46,445 nucleotides of DNA, taken from positions 1 through 46,445 of the forward strand of contig DVIL01000064.1 of assembly GCA_018711305.1 (NCBI GenBank). Direction: 5' to 3'. Positions 5,861 to 43,815 of this stretch are shown one piece after another; position 1 is the first letter of the stretch; each line of letters starts with the position of its first letter. The translations under genes were made by a program, and so were the position numbers. Under the pieces are notes generated by a model that saw nothing but the letters and a program-made list of their open reading frames with translations, made no database searches and had not been told where the DNA came from. This DNA is from Candidatus Coprenecus stercorigallinarum (lineage in GTDB: Bacteria; Bacteroidota; Bacteroidia; Bacteroidales; UBA932).

Positions 5861-6027
5861 ACTTTCAGGGAATACACATGCTCTGAAAAGCATGCCACCC
5901 GCGGCCTGTTAGCGGGAGGGACCCGCCTTGAGTATCACCGACTTACGAAGTAAGTAGATGATACTCACGATGGGAGGGATAGCGCCGTAGGCGCGTACTT
6001 TTCAGAGCATGTGTATTCCCTGAAAGT
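5861..6027 (+). repeat. Long-arm palindromic element, copy A
   Basis: 167-bp element bounded by a perfect 30-bp inverted repeat (5861-5890 and 5998-6027). The interior holds, in order: a small stem GCC/GGC (5894-5896/5903-5905) whose loop CCCGC (5898-5902) can pair with GCGGG (5912-5916); the conserved GGGAGGGACCCG; a hairpin GAGTATCA/TGATACTC (5930-5937/5959-5966) topped by ACTTAC-gaa-GTAAGT; GGGAGGG (5972-5978); and a hairpin GCGCC-gta-GGCGC (5982-5994). The same core recurs at 25067, 29335 and 43674 with different arms. It could be a bidirectional terminator, a structured RNA or a small mobile element. No open frame is convincing inside it. Confidence 0.85.
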
Positions 6028-6219
6028 GTACGGCCAGAGAAAAATTGCCTATTTTGGCAGGTAATTTGTATATTTGCGCCCGAGTATTAACCATTTAAGT
6101 TTATAGAATTGAAATTCAAGCCTTTCGAGTTCAGAGTCCGATGTTATTGGTGAGTCAGGCACTCTCCTGCAGAGAGTCGTTTCCATCAATTATAACCATC
6201 ATCAAACTCCGAAAGAAGC
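6028..6219 (+). promoter_or_regulatory. corA promoter and leader
   Basis: The -33 TTG(C) at 6045-6048 and -7 TATATTTG at 6069-6076 are 20 bp apart and match the Bacteroidetes consensus. The predicted leader is about 135 nt, long for this window. It contains a possible 32-codon upstream frame (ATG 6138, stop TAA 6236-6238) that runs into the corA start codon. Confidence 0.6.
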
Positions 6220-7170
6220 ATGATACAGATATTCTATAAAGACAAAGGCAAGATATCCATCTCCCAGTCCATTGTGTTCCTGGACGAACTGGGTATGGAC
6301 GATGTAATCTGGATAGACCTCTTTTCTCCGGACGGAGACGAAAAACGGGCGGTGGAGACCTTCCTCGATACTTCCCTGTCCTCCAGGGCGCAGGCGGAAG
6401 AGATCGAATCGTCATCCCGCTATTCCGAGACAGAAACAACCATATCTGTCAACACCAACTTCCTGATACCAGGTCCTGACGAATATTCCATGGAGGCAGT
6501 CTCGTTCATTCTCTGCGAGGGAATCATCGTGTCCATCAGGAACGTGCAGTTGCGCAGTTTTTCCGATATCCAGCGCAGGATTCAGGTCAACAGCAGGCTG
6601 TATCCTACGGGATACCATGTGCTGATAGGTATCGTCGAGAACCGAATCGACCTCGATGCGGATATGATCGAGCTGATGTCAAAGGAAATCGACACATACA
6701 GCAAGAAGGTCAGTGCCGGCAAGGATGTGAACGAGGAATTTCTCTTGGACATCAATCAGTTGCAGGAGAATACCATGCTCGTAAGGGAAAATGTGGTCGA
6801 CAAGCAGAGGATGATATCGTCCATCATGAAGAGCGACAAGTTCCCCAGGGATATCTTCCCCAAGCTTTCGGTGATCAACAAGGACATTGTCTCCCTGCTC
6901 AACCACACCAACTTCAGCTTCGAAAGGCTGGATTACCTTCAGAACACTGTAGTCGGTCTGATCAATCTCGAACAGAACCGCATCATGAAGGTCTTCACGT
7001 TTGTGTCGCTGCTGCTGATGCCGCCTACGCTGATAGCATCGATCTACGGCATGAATATCAACCTGCCTATGGCCGGCAGCGGCCTGCTGGACTTTTTTAT
7101 TCTGCTGGCATTGATGATAGTTGCGATTTTTGTTGTAATTTTGGTCTTCCGTAAACGAAGAATGCTATAG
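6220..7170 (+). CDS. corA: CorA-family divalent-cation transporter
   Basis: A 316-aa protein with a long cytoplasmic N-terminal domain, a long helix region and two C-terminal membrane segments. The first membrane segment ends in the family signature YGMN (in ASIYGMNINLP), which forms the ion-selectivity entrance. The C-terminus is short and basic (FRKRRML). CorA proteins form pentameric Mg2+ (also Co2+, Ni2+) channels in the inner membrane. It has its own promoter at 6045-6076 and is followed after 3 bp by the adenosylhomocysteinase gene, so the two are probably co-transcribed. Whether it carries Mg2+ or another metal cannot be told from sequence. Confidence 0.93.
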   Translation: MIQIFYKDKGKISISQSIVFLDELGMDDVIWIDLFSPDGDEKRAVETFLDTSLSSRAQAEEIESSSRYSETETTISVNTNFLIPGPDEYSMEAVSFILCEGIIVSIRNVQLRSFSDIQRRIQVNSRLYPTGYHVLIGIVENRIDLDADMIELMSKEIDTYSKKVSAGKDVNEEFLLDINQLQENTMLVRENVVDKQRMISSIMKSDKFPRDIFPKLSVINKDIVSLLNHTNFSFERLDYLQNTVVGLINLEQNRIMKVFTFVSLLLMPPTLIASIYGMNINLPMAGSGLLDFFILLALMIVAIFVVILVFRKRRML

Positions 7171-7173
7171 AAT

Positions 7174-8415
7174 ATGAGTGAAATAAAAAAACCTGATACA
7201 TGGGCCGAAGGCCGTCGCAAGATAGATTGGGTAAGGGCCAACATGCCTCTGCTCAACAGGATAGAAAAGAAATTCAAGGAAGAGAGACCTTTTGAAGGAT
7301 TGAAAATAGCACTGTCCATCCACTTGGAGGCCAAGACAGCATACCTGTGCGAAACCCTTGCAGCCGGTGGGGCGCAGATGTACATTACCGGCTCCAATCC
7401 GCTTTCAACCCAGGATGACGTGGCCGCCGCTCTCGTGCACGAGGGTCTGGAGGTATTCGCGTGGTACGGCTGTTCGGAACAGGAGTACATGGACAATATC
7501 CGCAAGGTAGTCTCATGCGGTCCCAACATCATCATCGACGACGGAGGAGACCTGGTGCATACCCTGCATGCAGAGATGCCTGAGCTGATTCCGGGCATCA
7601 TCGGAGGCTGCGAGGAGACCACTACAGGCGTGATGAGGCTCGAGGCCATGGACAGGGCAGGGGAGCTCCGCTTTCCCATGGTGCTGGTCAACAACGCCAA
7701 GTGCAAGTACCTGTTCGACAACCGCTACGGTACAGGACAGTCCGTATGGAACGGGATCAACCGCACGACCAACCTTATAGTCGCAGGCAAGAATGTAGTG
7801 GTAGCCGGTTACGGCTGGTGCGGCAAGGGAGTGGCCATGCGTGCAAAGGGACTCGGAGCTTCGGTCATTGTCACTGAGATAGATCCGGTAAAGGCTATCG
7901 AGGCCGTCATGGACGGATTCAAGGTCATGCCGATGGACCGCGCAGCGGAGATCGGGGATATCTTCGTGACCGTAACCGGCTGCAAGGACGTCATAACCCC
8001 GGCCCATTTCCTGAAAATGAAGGACGGCGCCATCTGCTGCAATGCCGGACACTTCGACTGCGAGGTGGATGTGCACGGTATCAGAAACATGGCAGTGGAG
8101 TCGTGGGAGGCCCGCAACAATATCATGGGCTACCGTCTGTCCAACGGCCGTTCCGTATTCATCCTCGCCGAAGGACGTCTGGTCAACCTGGCATCCGGAG
8201 ACGGGCATCCTGCGGAGATAATGGATATGAGTTTTGCAATCCAGGCCTTGAGCGCCCGTTACCTCGTGCATCACCGCGGCGAGGACATGCCCCGTATCAT
8301 CAGCGTACCCGAAGAGATAGACTCCGAGGTGGCCCGGATGAAGCTCGAGAGCTGGGGAACCGGCATTGACACCCTGACCCCGGAGCAGCATGATTACCTC
8401 TACGGCGGCCATTAG
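7174..8415 (+). CDS. ahcY: S-adenosylhomocysteinase, short form
   Basis: A 413-aa NAD-dependent hydrolase that splits S-adenosylhomocysteine into adenosine and homocysteine in the methyl cycle. The Rossmann NAD motif is visible (VVVAGYGWCGKGVA, near 208-221), as are GGCEETTTG, the VNNAKCKYLFDN segment with the catalytic Lys and Asp, and NAGHFDCEVD. The protein is short: it lacks the internal insertion of about 40 residues and the C-terminal KPDHYRY-type tail that reaches the neighbouring NAD site in long forms, ending instead at TPEQHDYLYGGH. This resembles the archaeal/Thermotoga class. It is followed 42 bp later by a PLP lyase. Confidence 0.93.
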   Translation: MSEIKKPDTWAEGRRKIDWVRANMPLLNRIEKKFKEERPFEGLKIALSIHLEAKTAYLCETLAAGGAQMYITGSNPLSTQDDVAAALVHEGLEVFAWYGCSEQEYMDNIRKVVSCGPNIIIDDGGDLVHTLHAEMPELIPGIIGGCEETTTGVMRLEAMDRAGELRFPMVLVNNAKCKYLFDNRYGTGQSVWNGINRTTNLIVAGKNVVVAGYGWCGKGVAMRAKGLGASVIVTEIDPVKAIEAVMDGFKVMPMDRAAEIGDIFVTVTGCKDVITPAHFLKMKDGAICCNAGHFDCEVDVHGIRNMAVESWEARNNIMGYRLSNGRSVFILAEGRLVNLASGDGHPAEIMDMSFAIQALSARYLVHHRGEDMPRIISVPEEIDSEVARMKLESWGTGIDTLTPEQHDYLYGGH

Positions 8416-8457
8416 CAGATAATCCGGAAGATTTTAGAAATTTTAAAAAATATAAAA

Positions 8458-9906
8458 ATGCCAAAAGTAAGATTCTACACCGGCATAGATATTCCATTGG
8501 AGTTTCATCGCGCGCGTATCGTGCAGAAGGTAAAGCTCCTGCCTATAGACGAAAGACTGGAAGCCTTGAAAAAAGGCGGATTCAATACATACCGCATGGA
8601 TTCGGCTGACGTGTATATGGACATGCTGACCGACAGCGGTACCAATGCCATGAGCGACCTTCAGCTGGCCGCAATGATGAGGGCCGATGACGCCTACGCC
8701 GGCAGCGAGTCGTTCAAGCGCCTCGAGAAGGCCGTCTTCGATGTGCTAGGCAAGCGCTATGTAGTGCCCGCGCATCAGGGACGCGCCGCTGAGAACGTAA
8801 TCATGAGGGCCTTCCTCAGGCCCGGGGACATTATTCCCATGAACTACCATTTCGGCAGTACCGTCAACCACATAAAGCTCAACGGCGGAAGACCTGTAGA
8901 TCTCGTAGATCCCCAGGTGGCGTTTGCCTCGGCCTCGGACAATCAGTTCAAGGGCAATATCGACATCGCCCGTCTGGAGGAGTGCATCGCCCGGTATGGC
9001 GCGGAACACATTCCTTTCATCCGTATGGAGGCTTCGACCAACCTCATCGGCGGGCAGCCCTTCTCTATGGCCAATCTGATGGAAGTGCGTAAGGTAGCGG
9101 ACCGCTATGGTATAAAGGTCCTGCTGGACGCCTGCCTGCTGGGAGAGAATGCATGGCTGATTATCCAGCGCGAGCCTGAGTATGCCCATGCCACACTGGC
9201 CGAAGTGCTGCTAAAGATGTGCTCCTTAGCCGACATAGTCTACTTCTCTGCCCGAAAACTGTCCTGCACCAGAGGAGCCGTCATCGCTACTGACAATTAT
9301 CAGGACAAGCTCAAAATGGACCAGGTCGTAGCCGTGTTCGAGGGTTACGTCACCTACGGCGGCATGTCCATGAAGGAGATCGAAGCCATGGCCCAGGGGC
9401 TGTATGAGGCCACGGACGAGGATTACATCTGCCAGAACCCCGAGTTCATAAGATATTTTGTGAATGAGGCCGTGAAGATGGGCATTCCGATGGTAACCCC
9501 TCCGGGCGTGCTCGGAGCGCAGATAGACGCAAAGAAGTTCTGCGACCACCTGTCTGTCCGCGACCTGCCCGCCAGTTCCCTTGCCGCGGCCATCTACCTC
9601 TGTTCAGGCGTGAGGACCATGGACGGCGGTACATACGCCGATGTGTCGGAGGATGATCCGGACTTTGTCGCAGATATGGAACTCGTGCGGATGGCATTCC
9701 CCCGTAAGGTCCTGACCCTGTCCCAGACGATGTATGCCCTTGACCGCCTGAAATGGCTGTATGACAATAGAGAACTGATAGGGGCAATCCGATGCAAAGA
9801 CATTCCCGGCATGCAGAGGTGCTTCCGCACTCCAATGGAACCGGTAGGGGACTGGCCGGAACGGATCATTGCCAGATTCAAGGAAGATTTCGGAGACAGC
9901 CTTTAG
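8458..9906 (+). CDS. Tryptophanase/tyrosine phenol-lyase family protein, atypical active site
   Basis: A 482-aa PLP-dependent enzyme of the beta-eliminating lyase family; the similarity runs over its whole length (LLTDSGTNAMSD, MMRADDAYAGS, PAHQGRAAEN, GGQPFSMANL, FEGYVTYGGM, MAFPRKVLT). The PLP-binding lysine is kept, but its context is SARKLSC instead of the usual SAKKDA, and the usual DSARFAENA reads DACLLGENA, replacing the arginine near the cofactor with leucine. Substrate is therefore uncertain: tryptophan and tyrosine are not supported. It lies 42 bp after ahcY, so a sulfur amino acid made from homocysteine is a reasonable guess only. A strong terminator follows. Confidence 0.8.
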   Translation: MPKVRFYTGIDIPLEFHRARIVQKVKLLPIDERLEALKKGGFNTYRMDSADVYMDMLTDSGTNAMSDLQLAAMMRADDAYAGSESFKRLEKAVFDVLGKRYVVPAHQGRAAENVIMRAFLRPGDIIPMNYHFGSTVNHIKLNGGRPVDLVDPQVAFASASDNQFKGNIDIARLEECIARYGAEHIPFIRMEASTNLIGGQPFSMANLMEVRKVADRYGIKVLLDACLLGENAWLIIQREPEYAHATLAEVLLKMCSLADIVYFSARKLSCTRGAVIATDNYQDKLKMDQVVAVFEGYVTYGGMSMKEIEAMAQGLYEATDEDYICQNPEFIRYFVNEAVKMGIPMVTPPGVLGAQIDAKKFCDHLSVRDLPASSLAAAIYLCSGVRTMDGGTYADVSEDDPDFVADMELVRMAFPRKVLTLSQTMYALDRLKWLYDNRELIGAIRCKDIPGMQRCFRTPMEPVGDWPERIIARFKEDFGDSL

Positions 9907-9912
9907 CCTATA

Positions 9913-9945
9913 AAAAAAGACCATCAGAAACTGATGGTCTTTTTT
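9913..9945. terminator. Bidirectional terminator between convergent genes
   Basis: A 15-bp perfect stem (GACCATCAG / CTGATGGTC extended by A and T tracts) with a 3-nt loop AAA. It ends the ahcY-lyase transcript and also the convergent NigD-like gene, whose last codons and TGA lie within the stem. Confidence 0.9.
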
Positions 9946-10613
9946 GCTTTTCCGTTGTCCTCTGTCTGACTAAGAGGGATATAGTCTATAATCAGCCCTT
10001 TGTATCCGGACTGGGTATATTGTGGCGGAAGCATGAACGTAGAGACTGTATTCGCTTTCATGAGAGGGGTGTCATCGTTGCTGTCGTGTCTCAGCTCGAG
10101 GTGATAGTAGCCGTCCTCGTCAGGATTGTTCAGGGAAGAGGAGTTGTCTACAAGATAGAATTCGTGTTTCGGAGCCGAAGCGCTGATGGCGTAGGAATAG
10201 GCGATGGTCAGGAAATGGTTGGTGCCGTCCACGCCGCCGCAGTGCCATGCGTTCTCGATGTCTATGCCGTCACTGCCGCAGGTGTCAGGCTTTGCCGAAT
10301 ATGTGATGGATTCTGTTTCGAGTTTGGTGATGGCGGAAAATTCCACTTCCACAGGATTTGTGATTTTGCCTGCAGGAATGACGAATGTGGCGAGAACCCT
10401 GTCATTGGTGACAAAATTCTTGATGACGTTGTAGTTGCCGGTGGGAATGACCTTTATCGAGTCATCGCTGATGAAATAGCAGCTGTATGGCGTACCTATA
10501 GAAGAGACAGCTGTCATGTAGGCCTGATATGTCGTTTCGCTGCTGTCATTGCAGGAAATAAGGGACAGTGCCGCCAAGGGCATCATAATAAGGGTCTTTA
10601 CGAGATTTTTCAT
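9924..10613 (-). CDS. NigD-like lipoprotein
   Basis: A 229-aa secreted lipoprotein. The start at ATG 10613 is chosen because it directly precedes a signal peptide (MKNLVKTLIMMPLAALS) ending in the lipobox LISC; an upstream extension to 10661 would spoil it. After the Cys come a small beta-rich N-domain and a C-domain with IENAWHCGGVDGTNHFLTIAY, the pattern of NigD-like proteins of Bacteroidales (cell-envelope proteins of unknown role). The stop codon lies inside the terminator hairpin at 9913-9945. A weak -7-like box (AATCTTTG) is seen at about 10659-10666. Family call is from pattern recognition. Confidence 0.75.
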   Translation of the reverse strand: MKNLVKTLIMMPLAALSLISCNDSSETTYQAYMTAVSSIGTPYSCYFISDDSIKVIPTGNYNVIKNFVTNDRVLATFVIPAGKITNPVEVEFSAITKLETESITYSAKPDTCGSDGIDIENAWHCGGVDGTNHFLTIAYSYAISASAPKHEFYLVDNSSSLNNPDEDGYYHLELRHDSNDDTPLMKANTVSTFMLPPQYTQSGYKGLIIDYIPLSQTEDNGKAKKTISF

Positions 10614-10693
10614 TTTTTGATATATCCTTTGATTTAAATTTGGCAGTTCTCCTCCCTGCAAAGATTATGCCCTAAGTTAAAAGTGTAAAATTA

Positions 10694-10725
10694 TTTGGAA
10701 ATCAGTAAAATACTCTTTACTTTTG
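10694..10725 (+). promoter_or_regulatory. rpsA promoter
   Basis: TTTG at 10694-10697, 20 bp spacer, TACTTTTG at 10718-10725: an excellent match to the Bacteroidetes promoter. The leader is about 68 nt and contains a 15-codon upstream frame (10758-10805) that overlaps the rpsA start. Confidence 0.8.
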
Positions 10726-10798
10726 CGCTCCCTTCGCAGGTGGAGGTTTTATAAATAATGTCTAACTCCTTAATGGAAAGATTGTTTTATTTAAAATT

Positions 10799-12688
10799 AT
10801 GGTAAAAGAAAAAGAAGTAATGGTGGAGAACGAGGAAATCGAGGCTCCCGTAGAAAAGAAGGAGACAGCCGAGTCCTATCAGGAAGAGGCGGCTCCCGTA
10901 GTGGATGCTATGGCTCCCAAACGCAAGAGCAATGCATCGGTGCCTGTCGACAAGTTCGACTGGGACAGTTTTGAGGAAGATACTCCTTATGAGGACCGCA
11001 AGGCCGATGAGGAGAAGTACAACCAGACACTCTCCAAGGTAGTGGAGAATGAGGTGGTGGAAGGAACGGTTATGGCCATCGGCAAGCGCGAGGTTCTCGT
11101 GAACATCGGCTACAAGAGCGAGGGCGTGATCAACATTTCCGAGTTCCGCTACAACCCCGACCTGAAGGTGGGCGACAAGGTAGAAGTATATGTCGAGACA
11201 GCAGAGGACAAGAAAGGCCAGCTGATTCTCTCCCACAGAAAGGCTCATTCGCTGCGTTCATGGGATCTCGTGAACGAGGCTTACGAGAAGGACGAGATCG
11301 TGAAAGGTTACGTGAAGTGCCGCACCAAGGGCGGTATGATCGTGGATGTATTCGGCATCGAGGCATTCCTGCCCGGATCCCAGATCGATGTCAAGCCCAT
11401 CCGTGACTACGATGTATTCGTCAACAAGACAATGGACTTCAAGATCGTCAAGATCAACAATGAATACCGCAACGTGGTAGTATCGCACAAGGCTCTTATC
11501 GAGGCTGAGATCGAGGCCCAGAAGGCAGATATCATCAGCAAGCTCGAGAAAGGCCAGATCCTCGAGGGTACAGTCAAGAACATTACCTCCTACGGTGTGT
11601 TCGTGGACCTCGGCGGAGTGGACGGACTCATCCACATCACAGACCTCTCATGGGGCCGTATCAATCATCCCGAGGAAGTCGTTCATCTCGACGAGAAGAT
11701 CAATGTGGTTATCCTCGACTTCGATGATACCAAGAAGCGTATCGCCCTCGGTCTGAAGCAGCTCCAGCCTCATCCCTGGGATGCACTTGATCCCAATCTC
11801 AAAGTGGGTGATGTCGTTAAGGGCAAAGTTGTCGTTATCGCAGACTACGGTGCATTCGTTGAGATCCAGCCCGGCGTTGAGGGCCTGATCCACGTATCCG
11901 AGATGTCATGGTCTCTCCACCTGCGCAGCGCACAGGACTTCCTGAAGGTGGGCGACGAGGTAGAGGCCGTTATCCTGACCCTCGACCGCGAGGAAAGGAA
12001 GATGTCCCTCGGTATCAAACAGCTCAAGGAGGATCCCTGGGCAACCATCACCGAAAAGTATCCTGTCAATTCCCGTCATATCGCTACAGTACGCAACTTC
12101 ACCAACTTCGGTGTGTTCGTCGAGCTTGAAGAGGGTGTGGACGGTCTGGTACACATCAGCGACCTTTCCTGGACAAAGAAGATCAAACATCCTTCGGAGT
12201 TCACTTCCATCGGAGACAAGCTCGAGGTTGTGGTTCTCGAGGTCGACAAGGAGAACCGTCGTCTGAGCCTCGGCCACAAGCAGCTTGAGGAAAATCCTTG
12301 GGACGTATTCGAGACACAGTATCCTCTCGGCTCTATCCATGAGGGAACAGTGGCCAGTTTCGCAGACAAGGGAGCCGTCATCTCTCTCGGCGAGGGTGTT
12401 GAGGGAACATGCTCCATCAAGAACCTCCAGAAACAGGATGGCACCACTGCCAACGTAGGTGAGAAACTTCCCTTCAAGGTGGTAGAGTTCAACAAGTCCA
12501 ACAAGAAGATCGTTCTCTCCCACACCAGAACATGGGAAGAGCCCAGAAAGGAGGAGAACCGTCGTGAGAACGAGAGCACACAGAGTGCTATGAAGAAGCT
12601 CAAGACCAATCTTGAGAAGACCACACTCGGTGACATCTCCGAACTTGCAGACCTGAAGAACAAGATGATGGAGGAAGCAGGAAAATAA
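10799..12688 (+). CDS. rpsA: 30S ribosomal protein S1
   Basis: A 629-aa protein with six consecutive S1 RNA-binding (OB-fold) repeats from about residue 78 to 580, seen by recurring patterns such as GTVKNITSYGVFVDLGG and GLIHITDLSW. An acidic N-terminal extension of about 70 residues and a charged C-terminal tail flank them. S1 binds mRNA on the small subunit; in Bacteroidetes, whose mRNAs mostly lack Shine-Dalgarno sequences, it is especially important for initiation. Followed after 13 bp by rnz, so probably one operon with rnz and the S41 protease. The gene's codon use looks more biased (repeated GAG, AAG, ATC) than its neighbours, as expected for a highly expressed gene. Confidence 0.97.
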   Translation: MVKEKEVMVENEEIEAPVEKKETAESYQEEAAPVVDAMAPKRKSNASVPVDKFDWDSFEEDTPYEDRKADEEKYNQTLSKVVENEVVEGTVMAIGKREVLVNIGYKSEGVINISEFRYNPDLKVGDKVEVYVETAEDKKGQLILSHRKAHSLRSWDLVNEAYEKDEIVKGYVKCRTKGGMIVDVFGIEAFLPGSQIDVKPIRDYDVFVNKTMDFKIVKINNEYRNVVVSHKALIEAEIEAQKADIISKLEKGQILEGTVKNITSYGVFVDLGGVDGLIHITDLSWGRINHPEEVVHLDEKINVVILDFDDTKKRIALGLKQLQPHPWDALDPNLKVGDVVKGKVVVIADYGAFVEIQPGVEGLIHVSEMSWSLHLRSAQDFLKVGDEVEAVILTLDREERKMSLGIKQLKEDPWATITEKYPVNSRHIATVRNFTNFGVFVELEEGVDGLVHISDLSWTKKIKHPSEFTSIGDKLEVVVLEVDKENRRLSLGHKQLEENPWDVFETQYPLGSIHEGTVASFADKGAVISLGEGVEGTCSIKNLQKQDGTTANVGEKLPFKVVEFNKSNKKIVLSHTRTWEEPRKEENRRENESTQSAMKKLKTNLEKTTLGDISELADLKNKMMEEAGK

Positions 12689-12701
12689 TCCACCTCTGCT
12701 C

Positions 12702-13631: not shown

Positions 13632-13632
13632 C

Positions 13633-16232: not shown

Positions 16233-16235
16233 ATT

Positions 16236-25066: not shown

Positions 25067-25165
25067 GTTTATTCAATAGTACAGGCTGCGGGATCCTCCC
25101 CACCTTCGGCGGGTCCCCTCCCTTTTCGGGAGCCAAAGTCCCGCAGCCTGCACTATTGAACAAAC
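25067..25165 (-). repeat. Long-arm palindromic element, copy B (reduced core)
   Basis: 99-bp element with 27-bp arms (25067-25093 and 25139-25165; 25 of 27 pairs). Read on the minus strand the core has GGCTCCCG, GGGAGGGGACCCGCC and GTGGGGAGGA, matching the other copies in order, but the internal hairpins are missing. The pseudoknot position has become a simple hairpin CTCCC-gaaaa-GGGAG (25118-25132). Confidence 0.75.
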
Positions 25166-29309: not shown

Positions 29310-29334
29310 CCGTTTGGGTGAATAACGCTCCGGG

Positions 29335-29461
29335 CCATCAGGGAGTGCTGCCTCCTGGAGGCGTAGCCGCCCGTGGCTTCGTGAACGGGAGGGGCCCGCA
29401 CTGCAGGTGTGGGGGGGATAGCGCGAAGCGCGTACCTCCAGGAGGCAGCACTCCCTGATGG
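29335..29461 (+). repeat. Long-arm palindromic element, copy C
   Basis: 127-bp element with a perfect 27-bp inverted repeat (29335-29361 and 29435-29461). Core: AGCC/GGCT stem (29365-29368/29375-29378), loop CCCGT (29370-29374) able to pair with ACGGG (29385-29389), GGGAGGGGCCCGC, a G-rich run, and the hairpin GCGC-gaa-GCGC followed by GTA. It lacks the internal GAGTGTCA-type hairpin of copies A and D. Confidence 0.85.
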
Positions 29462-29480
29462 CGGTGTGAGGCGATTTCTT

Positions 29481-29520
29481 CCACACCGGCAGTGTTTTCC
29501 GTGGTTTGCTGCCGTTGTGG
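29481..29520. repeat. 40-bp palindromic repeat, copy 1
   Basis: CCACACCGGCAG ... CTGCCGTTGTGG, an inverted repeat with 11 of 12 pairs and a 16-nt loop. A second copy lies at 29587 and a third at 41101. Confidence 0.75.
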
Positions 29521-29586
29521 ATGGAGGTGGTGACGGTAGGGTGTCCCAGAGTGTGCTGTCATCGATGTGCGGCATGCGGCGGTTTG

Positions 29587-29626
29587 CCACACCGGCAGTG
29601 TTTCCCGCGATTTGCTGCCATTGTGG
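29587..29626. repeat. 40-bp palindromic repeat, copy 2
   Basis: CCACACCGGCAG ... CTGCCATTGTGG, same orientation as copy 1 and 106 bp from it; flanking bases are also partly shared (GGCGnTTT before, ATGGAGG after), so the pair looks like a local duplication of about 60 bp. Confidence 0.7.
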
Positions 29627-32965: not shown

Positions 32966-32996
32966 TTTGGATTATTGAGAAAAATACCTACATTTG
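32966..32996 (+). promoter_or_regulatory. Promoter of the B12 operon
   Basis: TTTG at 32966-32969, 19 bp, TACATTTG at 32989-32996: a near-perfect Bacteroidetes promoter. Transcription would start about at the first base of the cobalamin riboswitch. Confidence 0.8.
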
Positions 32997-33003
32997 CACC
33001 GCT

Positions 33004-33192
33004 GAAAGTTTCCGTTCCGCCGCTCTGCGGTGGAGGAATCAAAAGGGAACCGGGTGAGAATCCCGGACAGTTCCCGCTGCTGTAATTTCCACGTCCTTTT
33101 CCGGACGGAAGTCACGCGGTCATCTTTTTAGCCACTGCCTGAAAAGGTGGGAAGGCTGCCGCGATGAGGAATAAGTCAGAAGACCTGCTTTC
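33004..33192 (+). promoter_or_regulatory. Cobalamin (B12) riboswitch
   Basis: Class I cobalamin aptamer. Conserved parts in order: AAAAGGGAACCGGGTGAGAA and the following TCCCGGACAG, CCCGCTGCTGTAA, GCCACTG, GGGAAGGC and the B12-box tail AAGTCAGAAGACCTGC. A closing stem GAAAG/CTTTC spans 33004-33192. Downstream, GACTGTCTG (33199-33207) can pair with CAGACAGTC (33262-33270), probably part of the expression platform. It should lower expression of the receptor operon when adenosylcobalamin is plentiful. Confidence 0.96.
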
Positions 33193-33368
33193 AGTTGTGA
33201 CTGTCTGCCCTGCGGGAGTACGGGTGCAGCATAGCTGAATGATTTTTTCTTCTTCAGGACACAGACAGTCTCCATGTATCAGAACAGTCGGAATGTTGTC
33301 GGGCTTTTGTCCTGCATTCTGCCGATTCTGGCGCATGGATATCCCGGGAGATGGAAAATTATTTGGCA

Positions 33369-35426
33369 ATGATAAACGATAAAGGGGGTACTGCATTACC
33401 TATTGTATTTTTGCTGCTGTTTCTTCCATGTGTGATGTCGGCTCAGGATACGGTTGGCCGCATGTCTGGAGATACGCTCAGTGAGGTGGTCGTCACGGCT
33501 GAACGGATAAGGGAGATTGTTCCGGCGCAAAGGCTGTCGGGGCGGCAGCTTCAGCGTCTGAGTTCCAATTCGATAGCAGATGCGCTACGGTATTTCTCCG
33601 GTGTGCAGGTCAAGGACTACGGTGGCATCGGAGGATTGAAGACTGTCAATGTGCGCAGTCTGGGAAGCCAGCATGTCGGGGTGTTCTACGATGGCATCCA
33701 GATATCCAATGCCCAGAACGGGACGGTGGATCTGGGCAAGTTCTCGATGGACAACATGGAGGTCCTCTCGGTGTACAACGGGCAGAAAAGCGATATTTTC
33801 CAGTCTGCCAAGGACTATGCGTCGGCAGCCGCCCTGTATATGGTCTCCCGCCGCCCCAGGTTCGGGGAGGGCAAGCGAAACAATCTCAATTTCAAGGTAC
33901 GCAGCGGCTCATTCGACCTTATCGACCTCTCTGCCCTGTGGGAGAGCAGGGTGGGGCGGTGGCTCAGTACCTCCGCCAATGTGGAATTTCTCAATACGTC
34001 AGGGCGTTACAAGTTCCGCTACAGCCGGGAAGGAGGTTATGACACTACAGAGGTGCGCAGGAACGGGGATGTGATGTACGTAAGGGCGGAGGCCGGGCTT
34101 TTCGGCAATATGCCCCGCACGGACTTTATGGTAAAAGGCTATTTCTACTGGTCGGAGCGGGGCTATCCCGGGGCGGCGGTCAAGAAAGACTACGGAATCT
34201 CGCTGCTCAACGAGGACCGTCAGAAGGACCGCAACATATTTGTGCAGTCGGCAGTTACACATCGGGCATCTGATTTCTACAGTTTCAGGTTGCAGGCAAA
34301 GTATGCCAATGACTACATGAATTATGTCATGCCTCCTCACAGCACGGTGCAGCCGATGGACAATCATTACTGGCAGCAGGAACTGTATCTGACCACCTCG
34401 CATCTCTTCTCCATCAACCGTGTATGGAGCACCAGTCTGGCCTGCGACCTGCAATGGAACGGTCTGGATGCGGACGGTACGGAGATGTTCGATGCCAATT
34501 TTATCCGGCCGCGCAGGCTGACAGTCCTTTCCGCCGCAGCCACTTCTGTCAATTTTGACTTCGGCCTCAGAGCTCAGGCAAGCGTGCTCTATACCTACGT
34601 CCATGATGTCAGCAAGCGCGGCATGGAGACGGCAGGGGACAAGAACGAATGGACTCCTACGGTGATAATCTCCTATACCCCATGGAAGGAGATCGGGCTG
34701 AGTTTCAGAGCCTTCTATAAGAAAATCTTCCGTATGCCCACTTTCAACGACCTGTATTATGTACAGCTCGGAAACCGCAATCTGAGACCGGAATACACGA
34801 CGCAGTACAATGTCGGTATTGCCTATGACAGGATATTCCGGAATACTTGGTTTGCAGGAATGCGGGCGAGTGTGGATTTCTATTACAATACTGTCAAGGA
34901 CAAGATAATAGCAACTCCGACATCCAACCAGCTCGTATGGACGATGGTCAATCTCGGGTATGTTGAGGTGAGGGGGATGGATGTGGCTGTCGCTCCTTCC
35001 TTCAGTTTCGGGCCGGTCGGGGTATCAGTCATGCTGAACTATACGTACCAGAAGGCTCAGGATTTTACCGGAACAAAGAAGGATGAAGGCTATGATGGGG
35101 TGATCAGCACTTATGGGGATCAGATACCGTACGTGCCGCTCCACAGCGGCTCCGCTGTGTTGAGTGTGAATTACGGGACATGGGACTTCCATTACAGCTT
35201 TGTCTATACCGGGGAGAGATACATGCTGGGCGGCAATGTGCCGGTGAACTACATCCTGCCGTGGTACACGAGCGACCTCTCGCTCTCCAAGATGTTCCGC
35301 ATAGGAAAGACAGAGTTGGGAGTGACTGCGGAGGTCAACAACATCTTCAACCAGCAGTACGAGGTGGTCAAGTGGTACCCCATGCCAGGCACAAACTTCA
35401 GGATAACATTAAGTCTTACAATATGA
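33369..35426 (+). CDS. btuB: TonB-dependent outer-membrane receptor, BtuB-type
   Basis: 685 aa from ATG 33369; an ATG at 33351 in the same frame would weaken the signal peptide (INDKGGTALPIVFLLLFLP, cleavage after SAQ). A TonB-box-like SEVVVTAER is followed by the plug domain (about 40-150; IADALRYFSGVQVKDYGGIG, VNVRSLGSQHVGVFYDG) and a 22-strand barrel ending ITLSLTI. It has no N-terminal carboxypeptidase-like extension, unlike SusC. The B12 riboswitch in front and the BtuG-like gene behind identify it as the corrinoid receptor. Stop overlaps the next start (ATGA). Confidence 0.93.
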   Translation: MINDKGGTALPIVFLLLFLPCVMSAQDTVGRMSGDTLSEVVVTAERIREIVPAQRLSGRQLQRLSSNSIADALRYFSGVQVKDYGGIGGLKTVNVRSLGSQHVGVFYDGIQISNAQNGTVDLGKFSMDNMEVLSVYNGQKSDIFQSAKDYASAAALYMVSRRPRFGEGKRNNLNFKVRSGSFDLIDLSALWESRVGRWLSTSANVEFLNTSGRYKFRYSREGGYDTTEVRRNGDVMYVRAEAGLFGNMPRTDFMVKGYFYWSERGYPGAAVKKDYGISLLNEDRQKDRNIFVQSAVTHRASDFYSFRLQAKYANDYMNYVMPPHSTVQPMDNHYWQQELYLTTSHLFSINRVWSTSLACDLQWNGLDADGTEMFDANFIRPRRLTVLSAAATSVNFDFGLRAQASVLYTYVHDVSKRGMETAGDKNEWTPTVIISYTPWKEIGLSFRAFYKKIFRMPTFNDLYYVQLGNRNLRPEYTTQYNVGIAYDRIFRNTWFAGMRASVDFYYNTVKDKIIATPTSNQLVWTMVNLGYVEVRGMDVAVAPSFSFGPVGVSVMLNYTYQKAQDFTGTKKDEGYDGVISTYGDQIPYVPLHSGSAVLSVNYGTWDFHYSFVYTGERYMLGGNVPVNYILPWYTSDLSLSKMFRIGKTELGVTAEVNNIFNQQYEVVKWYPMPGTNFRITLSLTI

Positions 35427-38292: not shown

Positions 38293-38300
38293 GAACGGAT

Positions 38301-40019
38301 ATGAGCAGGATTTACATTCTTATTATGGCTGTGTTGGCCGGAGCGGTGCTCTTCTCGTGTAGGGAGGAGATTACTCCTCCGGCTCCGGGCATCGCTCTGG
38401 ACAATGAGAGCGGCATCTATACGGTCAAGGCCGGGCGGATGATCACCATATCCCCGTCCTACAGCAATGCCGAGGGGGCGGAGTACTCCTGGACTCTCGA
38501 AGGCGGAGAGAAGCTAAGCGACGCACCTGTGCTGGAGTTCATGCGGGAAGAGACAGGCCGGTATTATATTGTGCTGACAGTCTCCAATGCGGGAGGTTCC
38601 GCTCAGGCGCAGATCAGGATAGACGTACAGGATATTACACCGCCGACGATAAGCCTGCCTGGAGCCGGGGACGGTTTCGTGATACTGCAGGGCACTTTCC
38701 TCGAATTGCGTCCGACGGTAGCTTCTTCCTTGGAGACAACCTATTCCTGGAGCGTGGACGGCAGCGAGGTCTCGACGGAGCCGGTGTACACTTTTGTCGG
38801 AGATGAGACCGGAGAATACCTCCTGCGCCTGGAGACTGTCAATGAGGACGGCAGCGATGCGGTGCAGTTTACCGTGAGTGTCAAGTCGCCTGACGAGGTG
38901 GATTTTTCCTGGACTTTCCTTCAGACTGAGTACAATATCTCACTCGGCCGCAGGGCACTCATCCGCGTACTGGATGTGCGTAATGCCTTTGATGCTGTCT
39001 ATACCTGGTATGTGGACGGCTCGCAGGTGCAGACAGGAGGAAAGACGGACTATGTTTTCACAGGCAGTGAGGAAGGGCAGTATGAGGTCAGGGTGGTGAT
39101 GGAAAATGCATATCTCACTGCATCACAGACTCTTACAGTCAATGTGTGTCCGCCCGAGGGGACGTACCGCCGTCCAGGCTCGTCCGCAAGCTTTGCCTCT
39201 GTCAATAAAGTCTATGAGTTCCTTCCGGCTCCGGGCCAGTTTGTGAATGAGTATTACGAGGCGGCGACTATGGAGGAGGCCTGCCGGTACGCTGAGGGCC
39301 GGATGGCGCAGACGCAGTATGTGTCCCTCGGCGGTTTCGGCGGCTTTATCGTGGCGGGCTTCGACCACAGTGTGGAAAATGACGGGGATTACAATATCGC
39401 CATTACCGGCAATGCTTTCGACGGCTCTTCCGAGCCGGGAATTGTCTGGGTGATGCAGGACGAGAACGGGGACGGTCTGCCCAATGACACGTGGTACGAG
39501 CTCAAAGGCTCCGAATACGGCAAGGCTGAGACCGATCAGGACTATGCCGTGACCTATTTCCGGCCCGAGGCTCCTGCCATGCCGGTGACGTGGACGGACA
39601 ACCGGGGCAATACCGGTACCGTGGAATATCTTGGCGCCTTTCACCGCCAGGATTACTATTACCCCACCTGGGTGGAGGAGAACAGCTATACCCTGCGTGG
39701 CACATGCCTTAAGGCCCGCAACTACGATGCGTCCGGCAACGGCACGTACTGGGTCAATCCGGCCTACGGCTGGGGCTATGCGGACAATTTCAGCAGTATC
39801 GACCGGCTGACAGACGATGACAACTACAATGCCTCGCCTGCCGACAACCATTTCCGCATCAGCGATGCCGTGACTTTCGACGGCAAGCCCGCCGGCCTGG
39901 CCTACATCGATTTTGTGAAAGTGCAGGTAGGTGTCAACGCCTCCAGCGGCTGGCTCGGAGAGGTGTCCACTGAGATATTCGATATAAAGGATTTCAATCT
40001 TTTGAAAACGACAAATTGA
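38301..40019 (+). CDS. Surface lipoprotein with three PKD-like domains
   Basis: 572 aa with signal peptide and lipobox LFSC near residue 20. Three Ig/PKD-like repeats follow (about 30-115, 116-200 and 200-290; recurring YSWTLEGG, YSWSVDGS, YTWYVDGS and GEYLLRLETV-like ends). The C-terminal 275 residues form a separate domain with VSLGGFGGFIVAGFDHSVEN and a calcium-loop-like DENGDGLPND. Relatives are found in B12 loci. It is the last gene of the operon, before the terminator at 40049. A role in B12 or corrinoid capture is inferred from the operon only. Confidence 0.8.
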   Translation: MSRIYILIMAVLAGAVLFSCREEITPPAPGIALDNESGIYTVKAGRMITISPSYSNAEGAEYSWTLEGGEKLSDAPVLEFMREETGRYYIVLTVSNAGGSAQAQIRIDVQDITPPTISLPGAGDGFVILQGTFLELRPTVASSLETTYSWSVDGSEVSTEPVYTFVGDETGEYLLRLETVNEDGSDAVQFTVSVKSPDEVDFSWTFLQTEYNISLGRRALIRVLDVRNAFDAVYTWYVDGSQVQTGGKTDYVFTGSEEGQYEVRVVMENAYLTASQTLTVNVCPPEGTYRRPGSSASFASVNKVYEFLPAPGQFVNEYYEAATMEEACRYAEGRMAQTQYVSLGGFGGFIVAGFDHSVENDGDYNIAITGNAFDGSSEPGIVWVMQDENGDGLPNDTWYELKGSEYGKAETDQDYAVTYFRPEAPAMPVTWTDNRGNTGTVEYLGAFHRQDYYYPTWVEENSYTLRGTCLKARNYDASGNGTYWVNPAYGWGYADNFSSIDRLTDDDNYNASPADNHFRISDAVTFDGKPAGLAYIDFVKVQVGVNASSGWLGEVSTEIFDIKDFNLLKTTN

Positions 40020-40048
40020 CAGAGTCCGCACCACTTTCAGAACCGACG

Positions 40049-40085
40049 GTGCAGCGCTTAATGTATTTTAGTGCTGCACTTTTTA
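40049..40085 (+). terminator. Terminator of the B12 operon
   Basis: Stem GTGCAGCGCT / AGTGCTGCAC (9 of 10 pairs, 40049-40058 and 40070-40079) followed by TTTTTATT. Confidence 0.8.
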
Positions 40086-40315
40086 TTATCTCTTCACCCA
40101 GTTCTCCAACTTAATTTCCGGTATGCGTGCAAGGTGCTTATCGTTTTCAGTAACCAGAATGAGGTTGTTTGCAATGGCTGTAGAGCCTATCAGTAAATCA
40201 AAGTCATCAATCAGGATTCCTTCTTCTGAGTGACAGTGAGTGGATAAACGATAGAAGACTGTCCATATTCAGAGAAACATTGGTGTTCATTGTTTGTCCT
40301 CCTGATTTATATTAT
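40086..40315 (-). pseudogene. Deleted toxin-antitoxin remnant (PIN toxin C-terminus)
   Basis: On the minus strand, after AGGAGG and ATG (near 40291-40289), a 27-codon frame starts MNTNVSLNMDSLLSFIHSLS and stops. In another frame the sequence then reads IDDFDLLIGSTAIANNLILV and ENDKHLARIPEIKLENWVKR, which is the C-terminal third of a VapC-type PIN toxin including its last acidic residues. The toxin N-terminus is missing. The simplest reading is an internal deletion that joined the start of an antitoxin gene to the end of its toxin gene. Confidence 0.7.
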
Positions 40316-40362
40316 GAATTATAGGCAAAATATTCAACCCAATAATCCAACCACATTCCAGA
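40316..40362. other. Short gap before the metallopeptidase
   Basis: A/T-rich, contains the probable promoter region of the remnant (minus strand TATAATTC-like). No gene. Confidence 0.35.
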
Positions 40363-41034
40363 TTACTCCCTGCGGAATCCGAGGTAGTAGACGAGGGAGG
40401 CCAGGGCACTGAGGGCTGCGACGAGGTAGGTGCGGGCGGCCCAGCGGAGGGTCGTGCGGGCCTGGTCCAGCTCAACGGTTGAAAGGGTGTTGGAGCGTTC
40501 CAGCCATGCCAGGGCGCGGGCAGATGCGTTGTATTCTACCGGCAGGGTGATGGCGCTGAAGAGGAATATCATGAAGAACATGGCGATTCCGATCCAGTAC
40601 AGGGAGGGGAATACGTTCATCATGACGAGTCCTAAAATGATCACTATCTGTGCGAACATCGAGGAGAACTGCACTATGGGCACGAGGGCGGAGCGCATCT
40701 TCAGGAAGGCGTAGCCCTCGGCGTGCTGCACGGCGTGTCCGCATTCGTGCGCTGCCACTGCTGCAGCCGCAACGCTGTTGCTGTTGTATACCGAGTCGGA
40801 GAGGTTCAGGGTCTTGTTTGCGGGGTTGTAGTGGTCGGTGAGATGGCCGCTGACATTGGTTACCCGCACGTCGCGGATACCGTGGTCACGCAGCATCTTC
40901 TCTGCCACCTCCCGTCCCGTAAGCCCTCCGTGGAACATTACACGTGAATATTTTGCGAATACTTTCTGCAGTCTGCTCTGCACTATCATGCCGGCAATGG
41001 CGATGACGATGATAAGTAGTAGTTCTAAACCCAT
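40363..41034 (-). CDS. Membrane zinc metallopeptidase (YugP-like)
   Basis: A 223-aa protein with an N-terminal membrane segment, the zinc motif HECGHAVQHAEGY (HExxH near residue 99), then hydrophobic segments (about 120-165 and 200-218). It is of the YugP/Zn_peptidase_2 family found throughout Firmicutes and Bacteroidetes; substrates are unknown. A partial second copy of its 3' end is embedded in the mosaic at 32713-32774. A poor -7 box (TATCTTCG) is at 41093-41086. Confidence 0.88.
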   Translation of the reverse strand: MGLELLLIIVIAIAGMIVQSRLQKVFAKYSRVMFHGGLTGREVAEKMLRDHGIRDVRVTNVSGHLTDHYNPANKTLNLSDSVYNSNSVAAAAVAAHECGHAVQHAEGYAFLKMRSALVPIVQFSSMFAQIVIILGLVMMNVFPSLYWIGIAMFFMIFLFSAITLPVEYNASARALAWLERSNTLSTVELDQARTTLRWAARTYLVAALSALASLVYYLGFRRE

Positions 41035-41100
41035 TTAAACTCTGTTTAATAATCAATGTCATACTGCATTGAAAAAATCATGCCGAAGATACGGTCGCAT

Positions 41101-41140
41101 CAGCAGTGGCAGCAAATAACGTAAAATGCTGCCGTTGTGG
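41101..41140. repeat. 40-bp palindromic repeat, copy 3
   Basis: Reverse-complement reading CCACAACGGCAG ... CTGCCACTGCTG aligns with the copies at 29481 and 29587 (about 30 of 40 positions). It starts 15 bp after the stop of the FtsX-like gene and may serve as its terminator. Confidence 0.6.
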
Positions 41141-41155
41141 CATTCCCGTGCCGCT

Positions 41156-43489
41156 CTAGTCCTTGCGGAGGGCTGTGGACGGATTGGTGTTCATCAGCTG
41201 TACGGCCCGATACGTGATGGTCACGACGGCTATGGCCGCCACAATCAGCAGGGCCAGCAGGTAGATCCACCAGTAGTTGCCGATACGGTAGCTGTAGGTC
41301 TGCAGCCAGCGTCCTGTGAAGGTATATATCAGAGGTACGGCAATGACGGCCGCGATGAGGGAGGCCGACAGGAAGCTGACGAGGGTATGGGTGTATATCT
41401 CGCCCCGGGGGCAGCCCATGATCTTGCGTATGGCCGCGCTCCTGGCCCTCTGGCGGGCGTAGTAGGTGCTCATGGCGACCATGGCCATGACCGTCAGGAC
41501 GATGGTGAGCATGGCGAAGATGCCTGTAAGTTTGAGGCTGCGGTTCTCTGCGGTATATGTCTGGCGGTATATGTTCTCGTAGGTATCGACGTTCACTTTC
41601 AGTTCCGGCTTTTCCGCTGCGTAGAATTCGCTGATGGCACGGACGGCATCGTCCGGGTTGCCGTTGGCTTTCACCACCAGTGAACGCATGTTGCCGAGCT
41701 GCTCCGGTCGGGAGGGCTGTACGGCCCATAGCAGCAGGTCGTTGTCAGTGGAGTTGGCATTGCCCATCCACAGGTCGTCTATGATGCCGCAGACATCGAT
41801 GGCACCCAGGTCGTATTCGAACAGTGTCGCATCCATATCCAGGCCTAATGCTGTGGCCGTCCTGCGGGTGAAATAGAAAGTGTCTGGCAGAGGGTCCGAA
41901 TTCTGGCTGAGAACCTTTACCCCGAGCAGTCTCATGGCCGTGGTGTCCCCGTCAAACAGGATTACCGCATACCGGTTGCCATTGAGTTCCATTCCCCAGC
42001 TGGATCTGGTGTTCCCGGCAGGGCATCCCTGTATCAGACCGACATCCGCCACGCACGGCAGGGATTTCAGCCTGTCTATGAGAAAATCATCTAAATCCTG
42101 GGTATTGGTTGCAGTTACATTGACAAGTGAGTCCCGGACATAACCCATGGGCTTCTCCACCATGTGGCGGAGCTGGAGGAACATAGCTATGGCAATGGCT
42201 ACGGCTCCTATGGCGGTGACGTTCTGCACCACGAGGAATATCCGTCCGAGTATCATCTTGCTGGCCTTGGTGAACTCTCCCCGGACTATGTCAAGCGGCC
42301 TGTAGCGGGAAACCATCAGGGCCGGTATGATACCGGACAGGACGGAGAGCAGCACTATGACTCCGGCCCACATTGCGGCAGTCCCCCAGGTAAGGGACGA
42401 CAGCGGGCTGTAGGTCTTGCCTATGAGGGTGCTGAACCAGGGCGCGGTAGCCTCGGCCAGCAGGAAACCGAGAATGAACGATACGGCAGTCACGGCGAAG
42501 GACTCTCCGATATAGCGCAGTACGATGCCTCCGCGGGAGGAGCCTATCAGCCTGCGGGTGGCCATCTCCTTTACCCTGAATCCGACCTGGGCGGTGGTGA
42601 GGGAGATATAGTTGAGCAGGGCAAATACCAGCAGCAGCACTCCGGCAGCGGTGAAGAGCCGCAACATGTCCCGGTTGACAATGTTCTCGAAGGGAAAGGG
42701 GAAGGAGGAGCCTATACCATAGTGTATCTCCTTGAACGGTATAAGGTTGTATTCGGAGCAGATACCGGACATATACAGCGCGTCGCTTTCCTTCAGGATA
42801 TCGAGTATCCCGCTGGAAATGGCGTGGATATCGGCTTCCGGCCTGATTTTATATAAGGTAGCTGTGGTGCCGTTGCCGTTGCGGGTGATGTACGGTGCGT
42901 GCCTCTCCAGCATTTCCAGCCTGTATATCATGTCGCACTGCGGCAGTACCGTCCGCTCCATATCCTCGAAGATGCCTGTGACAATCAGGCTGGTCGTTCC
43001 ATTGTCTATCGTGATATCCAGTGTATTGCCTATGGCATTGCCTTCCGGAAACCACTTGTCGGCGAATGACTGCGAGATAATGACGGAACTGATGGTCTCG
43101 AGTACACTGTTCCTGTCCCCGACGGCCATGGGTATGGGGATGAGGGACATGAAGCTGGAGTCTACGCACAGGGCATTCTGGGGCATAGTCTCATCGCCTA
43201 TGGTAACGCTCTGCTCCATCCCGCTGAGGGATTTGAGGCCTATAAGGCGGCAGATGGCCTCGACATCCGGATAGCGGCCTTCCACCGAGCCTTTGATGGT
43301 GCCGCTGAGACCGAAGAACTCGGAATCCGAGCCGACGTACACATCGTCACCGACGAAAGTGTCGTAACTGCTCTCCTGAGTCACGTATGTACCTATGAAA
43401 ACGATAAAGGCAAGGGCAATGGCCATACCTGCCACCTCTATCACCGTGTAGAGGCGGTTGCGGGAGATGAATCTGAGGAATGATTTCAT
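41156..43489 (-). CDS. FtsX/MacB-type ABC transporter permease, third family member
   Basis: A 777-aa permease with the same long layout as those at 17295 and 20672: N-terminal helix (MKSFLRFISRNRLYTVIEVAG), periplasmic domain, helices around 275-440 with VGFRVKEMATRRLIGSSRGG, second periplasmic domain and C-terminal FtsX block (ARSAAIRKIMGCPRGE). It is clearly more distant from the other two than they are from each other. No ATPase is encoded nearby. A 12-bp perfect inverted repeat upstream (43527-43561) is a likely operator. Confidence 0.9.
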   Translation of the reverse strand: MKSFLRFISRNRLYTVIEVAGMAIALAFIVFIGTYVTQESSYDTFVGDDVYVGSDSEFFGLSGTIKGSVEGRYPDVEAICRLIGLKSLSGMEQSVTIGDETMPQNALCVDSSFMSLIPIPMAVGDRNSVLETISSVIISQSFADKWFPEGNAIGNTLDITIDNGTTSLIVTGIFEDMERTVLPQCDMIYRLEMLERHAPYITRNGNGTTATLYKIRPEADIHAISSGILDILKESDALYMSGICSEYNLIPFKEIHYGIGSSFPFPFENIVNRDMLRLFTAAGVLLLVFALLNYISLTTAQVGFRVKEMATRRLIGSSRGGIVLRYIGESFAVTAVSFILGFLLAEATAPWFSTLIGKTYSPLSSLTWGTAAMWAGVIVLLSVLSGIIPALMVSRYRPLDIVRGEFTKASKMILGRIFLVVQNVTAIGAVAIAIAMFLQLRHMVEKPMGYVRDSLVNVTATNTQDLDDFLIDRLKSLPCVADVGLIQGCPAGNTRSSWGMELNGNRYAVILFDGDTTAMRLLGVKVLSQNSDPLPDTFYFTRRTATALGLDMDATLFEYDLGAIDVCGIIDDLWMGNANSTDNDLLLWAVQPSRPEQLGNMRSLVVKANGNPDDAVRAISEFYAAEKPELKVNVDTYENIYRQTYTAENRSLKLTGIFAMLTIVLTVMAMVAMSTYYARQRARSAAIRKIMGCPRGEIYTHTLVSFLSASLIAAVIAVPLIYTFTGRWLQTYSYRIGNYWWIYLLALLIVAAIAVVTITYRAVQLMNTNPSTALRKD

Positions 43490-43673
43490 ATTGGTCGGTA
43501 TAATATCGTTCCTTTATATAACCAAAATTGTGCCATAATTGTTAATCGATTATGGCACAATAATTTAGTAAAATCTTTAAAATCGGTAGCTGTTAAAAAA
43601 TCATACAGAAAGTGTCTAATTTTTTGAAAATTGTAAAGAAATCATACAGTACATCAGCCGGTCCATGACCTGC
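43490..43673. promoter_or_regulatory. Upstream region of the third permease with a strong dyad
   Basis: ATTGTGCCATAA (43527-43538), 11 bases, TTATGGCACAAT (43550-43561): a perfect 12-bp inverted repeat 38-72 bp before the ATG, fitting a dimeric repressor or activator. Further up, AAATCATACAG occurs twice (43598-43608 and 43640-43650). No clear TAnnTTTG box is visible. Confidence 0.6.
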
Positions 43674-43815
43674 GTGTAAAAACATACGTCTGAAAAGACT
43701 AGCCGCCCTCGGCTCAAGAGGGAGGGACCCGTTGTCGAGTGTCACCGAGTTACGAAGTAACGAGCTGACACTCACAATGGGAGGGCCTGGTCTTTTCAGA
43801 CGTATGTTTTTACAC
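43674..43815 (+). repeat. Long-arm palindromic element, copy D
   Basis: 142-bp element with a perfect 25-bp inverted repeat (43674-43698 and 43791-43815). Core: AGCC/GGCT stem (43701-43704/43711-43714), loop CCCTC (43706-43710) able to pair with GAGGG (43718-43722), GGGAGGGACCCG, hairpin GAGTGTCA/TGACACTC topped by GTTAC-gaa-GTAAC, and GGGAGGG. The GCGC hairpin of copies A and C is absent. It begins 17 bp downstream of the stop of the nitroreductase-like gene, with the core in opposite orientation to that gene. Confidence 0.85.

Follow-up and report, generated by a model that had tools for sequence, protein, structure and literature searches.

The four long palindromic elements of this 46,445 nt stretch of Candidatus Coprenecus stercorigallinarum DNA (the window, at its full length) probably belong to a family of palindromic mobile repeats of the Bacteroidales that are non-autonomous and fold on themselves. 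Copies are dispersed, loci are found both occupied and empty, cores are inverted and exchanged within a locus, the arms change in pairs, and elsewhere in the Bacteroidales copies reside in open reading frames. Each copy would consist of a structured core of ~50–100 nt closed by a stem of ~15–38 bp, and the core is modelled as a pseudoknot of two stems, S1 and S2, followed by one hairpin or two, in which C-GNA-G loops are frequent, and containing two G-rich blocks.

A search of the window for inverted repeats (ungapped, arms of at least 16 nt, no more than 400 nt apart) returned eight pairs, the four longest of which are elements A, B, C and D; the next pair was a 20 nt palindrome with overlapping arms at 80 %. 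The claim of four long hairpins in the preliminary description was borne out. Element A (+ strand) has arms of 38 nt that are 92 % complementary, the left at 5858–5895, its inner end extending into the core, and the right at 5993–6030. The core, a long-hairpin variant, occupies 5896–5992 (model R1, E 9.8e-9), and sequence together with family-wide covariation places the interleaved stems at 5894–5916, with S1 formed by GCC 5894–5896 and GGC 5903–5905, and S2 by CCCGC 5898–5902 and GCGGG 5912–5916. Element C (+) has fully complementary 28 nt arms at 29334–29361 and 29435–29462, enclosing a core at 29362–29434 (R1, E 1.1e-13) in which S1 pairs AGCC 29365–29368 with GGCT 29375–29378, S2 pairs CCCGT 29370–29374 with ACGGG 29385–29389, and the last hairpin is GCGC-GAA-GCGC. 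Element D (+) has 29 nt arms, 97 % complementary, at 43674–43702 and 43787–43815; its long-hairpin core lies at 43703–43786 (R1, E 1.4e-17), with S1 formed by AGCC 43701–43704 and GGCT 43711–43714, and S2 by CCCTC 43706–43710 and GAGGG 43718–43722. The outer 21 nt of the C and D arms had no other match in their own genome at up to three mismatches.

Element B (− strand) has 27 nt arms, 93 % complementary, at 25067–25093 and 25139–25165, around a core at 25094–25138 that is laid out as GGCTCCC-GAAAA-GGGAGGGGACCCGCC-GAA-GGTGGGGAGGAT. An ordered core had been attributed to all four elements. This holds for A, C and D, but not for B, which R1 matched only at E 0.47, and the different core of which (GGCTCCC-GAAAA-GGGAGGGGACCC...) recurs at six further places in its own genome. 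As the B core differs yet is repeated in the genome, we recognize two related subfamilies. The nearness to stop codons described previously stood for A (~3 bp), C (~25 bp) and D (~17 bp, the gene being on the opposite strand), but B lies farther from a called ORF. Another intergenic repeat, with the repeated text CACACCGGCAGTGTTT...TGCTGCC...GTGG, is present 3′ of element C at window positions 29480–29600, and a longer run of similar units occurs at locus C in genome G017 (L290).

The exact motif GGGAGGGNCCCG was present at 19 places in the own genome, a 2.1 Mb draft, and the reversed control at one. Model R1, built from 13 copies including A, C and D, found 22 own-genome copies, these three included, with E no higher than 2.3e-8, and 36 when the cut-off was relaxed to E ≤1. 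A model search of the genome and its relatives had been proposed at the outset, with the finding of no further copies taken as a refutation; the 22 strong copies answer this point. The six weaker R1 matches inspected (L047–L052) belong to the sister subfamily of B, having the same plan and the other core; three arm sets were seen in this subfamily, one of which occurs at four places and, except for its outer tip, at B. Within the genus, 18 of 19 genomes had R1 matches, at 1 to 24 copies per matching genome, and none was found in 20 genomes from other genera. The genus set used below comprises 130 copies (133 were taken, three of which had no locus sequence); about 15 listed, mostly weaker places were left out, so the total in the genus is higher.

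The element also occurs in other Bacteroidales. A pattern scan of contigs, covering one genome per species and biased toward the CCCTC core, found it in at least 115 stretches; the 80 stretches listed are assigned to Bacteroidales, Bacteroidia or Candidatus Coprenecus, and many of these derive from ruminant stomachs. At least 76 stretches come from assemblies of other Bacteroidales, since four of the 80 listed (L168, L182, L194 and L197, with 5 of the 83 elements that make up our contig collection) are apparently genomes of the genus set. Under strict filters, model R2 reached E 1e-4 or better in 4 of 198 Bacteroidales genomes, representing 3 of 150 genera, with 17–20 copies in G199. The distribution of the element across the order is patchy. 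One core pattern had no match in viral contigs.

A match to a known database family had been named as a second possible refutation. Against Rfam, the window elements had no family at the curated threshold; in the whole window only a cobalamin riboswitch and a signal recognition particle RNA reached it. The riboswitch (RF00174, 107 bits, 32989–33206, +) precedes the ORF at 33351–35426, and the Bacteroidales small SRP RNA (RF04183, 25653–25761, −) lies ~500 bp from element B. No description of the element family was recognized in the titles and abstract openings covered by our literature search, to which subscription journals contributed little.

The genomes are drafts, mostly metagenome-assembled, and palindromes are prone to assembly error. 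Several G199 and G050 contigs terminate in or beside a copy, and in G199 we observed inverted pairs of copies with cores 52–118 bp apart (L344, L347 and L350).

The core follows the plan xGCC-R-CCCnn-GGCx′...n′n′GGG in 201 of 213 copies (73 distinct cores), as read by a parser that itself required CCC and GGG and dropped the other 12. S1 (xGCC with GGCx′) and S2 (CCCnn with n′n′GGG) are interleaved in the manner of a pseudoknot. Among the 73 distinct cores, the fourth S1 pair, x–x′, was T-A, G-C, A-T or C-G in 63, G-T in one and unpaired in nine, and the variable nn positions of S2 paired in all 73 (once as G-T), mainly in the versions CCCTC/GAGGG, CCCGC/GCGGG and CCCGT/ACGGG. Across 35 chosen cores, pairing held in 96.0 % of cells (91.7 in shuffled sequences), 23 cells carried double changes (6.3 in shuffles), and the covariation score was 0.131 against 0.051, a value that none of 500 shuffles reached; pairing collapsed when the structure was slid. 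The number of further pair types, 11, was not above chance (9.6 in shuffles; 111 of 500), and S1 continued in register beyond four pairs in just 18–31 of the 73 cores. One or two hairpins follow S1/S2, and of the distinct sequences, 37 of 99 for the second hairpin (H2) and 18 of 37 for the third (H3) had C-GNA-G loops, compared with two GNRA tetraloops in the same count. These data identify the core as a structured nucleic acid, constrained to keep its pairing.

The preliminary description had offered a structured RNA, a folded single-stranded DNA or inverted copying of the flank as candidate explanations. The structured core was upheld, a folded DNA form is plausible, and the copying of flanks became less likely, as discussed below. 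GNA loops closed by C-G are unusually stable in DNA, and it is these loops, the lack of an overall strand bias in arm mismatches and the presence of the core in both orientations at one locus that make a folded single-stranded DNA stage plausible. The loop between S1 and S2 is one nucleotide long; a first loop of this length is characteristic of RNA pseudoknots, and so counts against the DNA form of the mobile repeat. Together with the covarying interleaved stems, and with long complementary ends like the a1/a2 repeats of retrons, it would suit a trans-acting structured RNA (a retron-like msr/msd, guide or small RNA) for which the arms provide a closing stem. We consider such an RNA improbable given the 1 to 24 copies per matching genome, in both orientations and elsewhere inside genes; moreover, two copies searched against Rfam in E-value mode, one in each run, retrieved nothing but miRNA and lncRNA models, with scores that fell far short of the threshold.

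Copies with arms of at least 14 nt span 93–173 bp in Coprenecus (108 of 130) and 89–174 bp in the contig collection (75 of 83). The earlier claim that the arms have no sequence in common failed for the ~8 nt next to the core, which A and D share as CTGAAAAG, but was sustained farther out, where information was mostly below 0.35 bit per position (range 0 to 0.57, with orthologues kept in). Complementarity is well preserved: 141 distinct arms of at least 16 nt had 104 mismatches in the 2,300 pairs lying beyond the nine innermost positions. Overall, 36 of these mismatches were G-T and 27 A-C, without strand preference. Coprenecus arms alone (15 G-T, 17 A-C) had no G-T bias, and arms from outside the genus leaned weakly to G-T (23 to 11; one-sided p 0.03).

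For the definition of arm families, some locus groups were merged by hand, leaving 62. The 34 Coprenecus groups with arms of at least 22 nt fell into 27 families, 23 of them confined to a single locus and four present at more than one; in G199, many loci draw on two arm types, around cores that vary. Orthologues have conserved arms. Where these had changed, in the most different alignable pair of each of 20 groups, we counted 43 two-sided changes, 20 one-sided and three others, and by our estimate about six two-sided changes would be expected if the arms changed independently. This count sets aside pairs less than 60 % alike (seven listed), and finding arms by complementarity favours two-sided changes. 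On balance, the arms probably travel with the element.

The preliminary description had also proposed a comparison of orthologous gaps with and without the element, and within the genus we found both states. By their flanks, with likeness needed on both sides, the 130 genus copies formed 69 locus groups; this is an overcount, since 122 one-sided pairs were found, 60 of which were listed. We inspected loci A, C, D and E012 in 16 versions without the element, 15 of which had no arm. Locus A was element-free without arm trace in G016, G009, G011 and G006, and loci C and D contributed ten more element-free versions, none with an arm. At locus E012 in G003, a terminator-like simple hairpin with A and T tracts replaces the element. 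The flanks of locus A are 500–2,300 bp apart in G012, G015 and G017, which were kept outside the element-free count. The element-free sites are too diverged for the element ends to be placed, and neither a target-site duplication nor a clean terminus was defined; loss of the element may account for the differences within the genus. Where element D would lie, G008 and G016 (L287 and L286) have other intergenic repeats, made of CTCCTTCGGAAGGAG and GGCACCTTCTC units, and several repeat families seem to share this gap.

Occupied loci differ among themselves. Locus A in G003 and locus D in G005 carry shorter, inverted cores, the latter seen as E005 against E079, E105 and E106, and the core of locus C is inverted in G011. 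Orientation is also opposite between E025 and five other copies, and between E024 and E078. The kind of core at locus D differs between species, and in E056 and E080 identical arms enclose a short and a long core, respectively, which represents core exchange.

The sixteenth element-free version, locus C in G017, retains a lone left arm, matching at 27 of 28 bases and following the same stop codon, with neither core nor partner arm, and this arm joins directly to the right-flank text that G012 has after its right arm. It is the pre-insertion state predicted if insertion makes an inverted copy of the flank, the arms being born from the target; consistent with this, 23 of the 27 Coprenecus arm families are single-locus, the C and D arms are unique in their genome, and the outermost bases of element B pair in another way than those of its sister copies. 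However, a deletion reaching from one arm-end GGCG repeat to the other would also yield the G017 state, the 15 other element-free versions have no arm, G199 and four Coprenecus families bring one arm to several loci, and the insertions in proteins described below add approximately the whole element to a domain. We regard an origin of the arms by flank copying as distinctly unlikely.

The positions of copies relative to genes were assessed with simple longest-ORF calls. Leaving eight of the 69 Coprenecus locus groups unresolved, 31 of 61 lay between convergent genes, 25 between tandem and five between divergent genes; control gaps of at least 60 bp in the window numbered four, six and five, respectively (n=15). 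Of the neighbouring 3′ ends, 58 of 87 were within 60 bp of the element. Outside ORFs, copies of the contig collection were convergent in 15 cases, tandem in 24 and divergent in two (n=41, 38 ORF-overlapping and four other copies being excluded), compared with 8, 26 and 21 of other gaps (n=55). These placements favour a host 3′-end element, in which the long hairpin acts as a bidirectional terminator or protects mRNA 3′ ends, is kept by selection and is spread by conversion, as do the AAAAGAC/GTCTTTT sequences framing type I cores and the A/T-tract hairpin of G003. Nevertheless, core orientation is variable (10 forward and 15 reverse at tandem loci, and the inversions at orthologous loci), the T tract is short in other Bacteroidales, and Coprenecus arms show no G-T mismatch bias. 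A terminator role is hardly possible for the copies inside open reading frames, and as a general explanation we judge it unlikely.

The copies inside frames comprise 35 of the 83 elements of the contig collection, to which this test was applied, each within an open frame continuing for at least 30 codons on each side; none of the 35 comes from the genus set. Pfam analysis of 30 cases found a domain in 25 and none in five. In six cases a match runs across the element (RNase R, Radical_SAM_N, a pseudouridine synthase, MraW, AIR synthase and an ABC ATPase), and 13 others have matches flanking it on both sides (RibF four times, TruB twice, HI0933-like twice, and others), giving 19 with spanning or flanking matches; in three of the remainder one family matched two stretches, the second place not being displayed, and in three there was a match on one side only. 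The insertions lengthen the domain by approximately the whole element, and in two genes the insert is at the identical point in two genomes each. Five of the six reading frames were used (10, 10, 7, 5 and 3 copies). The sixth, in which the element has a conserved TAA, was never read, partly because open frames were the selection criterion. At copies outside ORFs, none of ten flank pairs (from 48 copies) represented one split gene, six of the pairs having no Pfam match on either side. The sequences favour probable translation through the insert over its removal or bypass. In Coprenecus, where some short ORFs were listed over copies, every frame is closed by stops in 41 of 108 copies, which fits their intergenic life.

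We searched for a gene that could mobilize the element. IS200-like Y1 genes occur in 15 of the 19 genus genomes; 42 Y1 places were listed, and a motif scan covered 31 loci, three from the own genome and 28 from elsewhere in the genus. Two of the 31, L306 (B-type) and L307, carry a copy, and both are at the E012 locus. Additionally, G001, G004 and G007 have copies and no Y1 match, and we rejected an association with RAYT genes. A short Y1 frame of 189 aa (G005:C156:4513–4710 and 5416–5486), outside the 31 scanned loci, lies close to copy E027, also at the E012 locus; other Y1 frames of the genus are about 280–410 aa. Near a Y1 gene in L020 (~2077) there is a different, REP-like G-rich hairpin, CCCTCCC-TTTT-GGGGAGGGTTTGGGAGGGGGTGGGG.

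How might a mobile palindrome of this kind behave? It would spread via a folded single-stranded form, most likely DNA, handled by the host or by a trans-acting enzyme. Recombination between the inverted arms may flip the core, gene conversion among copies may keep cores alike while arms drift, and template-switch correction or selection may maintain arm complementarity. Copies would persist where tolerated, which in Coprenecus would be just 3′ of stop codons, mostly between convergent genes, and elsewhere in the Bacteroidales in frame in tolerant protein loops.

Several observations sit less easily with a mobile palindrome: the rarity of copies at the scanned Y1 loci (two of 31), which pointed to no mobilizing gene, the lone arm in G017, the G-T lean outside Coprenecus, the lack of added pair types over shuffles and the limited register of S1. 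Furthermore, cores are alike where arms are unrelated, though arms are conserved between orthologues, a combination that conversion plus drift fits only if the arms are old. The conservative answer would be core conversion with slow arm drift, and the bold one renewal of the arms as a pair at each movement. The latter leads us to speculate, tentatively and at less than even chances, that the inherited unit is the fold and not the end sequence: a self-folding, single-stranded core would move between, flip inside and be exchanged within arms that are renewed as complementary pairs, would be able to lodge in frame in housekeeping genes, and would have its ends recognized by structure alone. The target would perhaps supply the renewed arms, a possibility with which the lone arm of G017 is compatible.

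The occurrence of a gut and rumen Bacteroidales family with a covarying core in tRNA- and rRNA-modification and other housekeeping genes makes the question of movement and tolerance testable, perhaps in culturable relatives, and the arms are a natural record of complementarity kept while sequence changes.

Among known systems, REP/BIME elements are folded palindromes, with the RAYT (Y1) gene bordered by repeats. Our elements share the folded palindrome, and Y1 genes are common in the genus, but they are much longer, rarely near Y1 genes, and have paired arms with little shared sequence. In the mitochondria of Nematomorpha, perfect inverted repeats lie inside protein genes, both arms reportedly encoding conserved protein sequence (PMC6649704); unlike these, the arms described here are parts of an inserted, core-bearing repeat family. 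The Correia repeat is reported to have a 107 bp form with open frames that enters genes and a stop-rich 155 bp form that stays intergenic (PMC2229807). Correia/NEMIS and ERIC-type MITEs are, like our elements, small dispersed non-autonomous repeats, and the split between gene-entering and intergenic forms recurs here between lineages; however, they have conserved terminal inverted repeats, whereas in our family conservation lies in the core and usually not in the arms. Such terminal repeats are lacking in Coprenecus; G199 copies share arms. The closest likeness by description is to Rickettsia palindromic elements (RPE), repeats of ~105–146 bp modelled as long stem–loops, both intergenic and in frame in conserved genes (PMC2229807). 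In-frame palindromes are known there above all from Rickettsia, and its reference list names Wolbachia as well. Shared with RPE are the palindrome with a long stem–loop, an overlapping size, although the range here is wider (89–174 bp), and residence both in frame in conserved protein genes (35 of 83 in the contig collection) and between genes. By analogy, the element may work like an RPE, a likeness of description; it is set apart by its host in another phylum, by a conserved core with covarying interleaved stems, by arms that are mostly locus-specific, and by a core that inverts and is exchanged in place.
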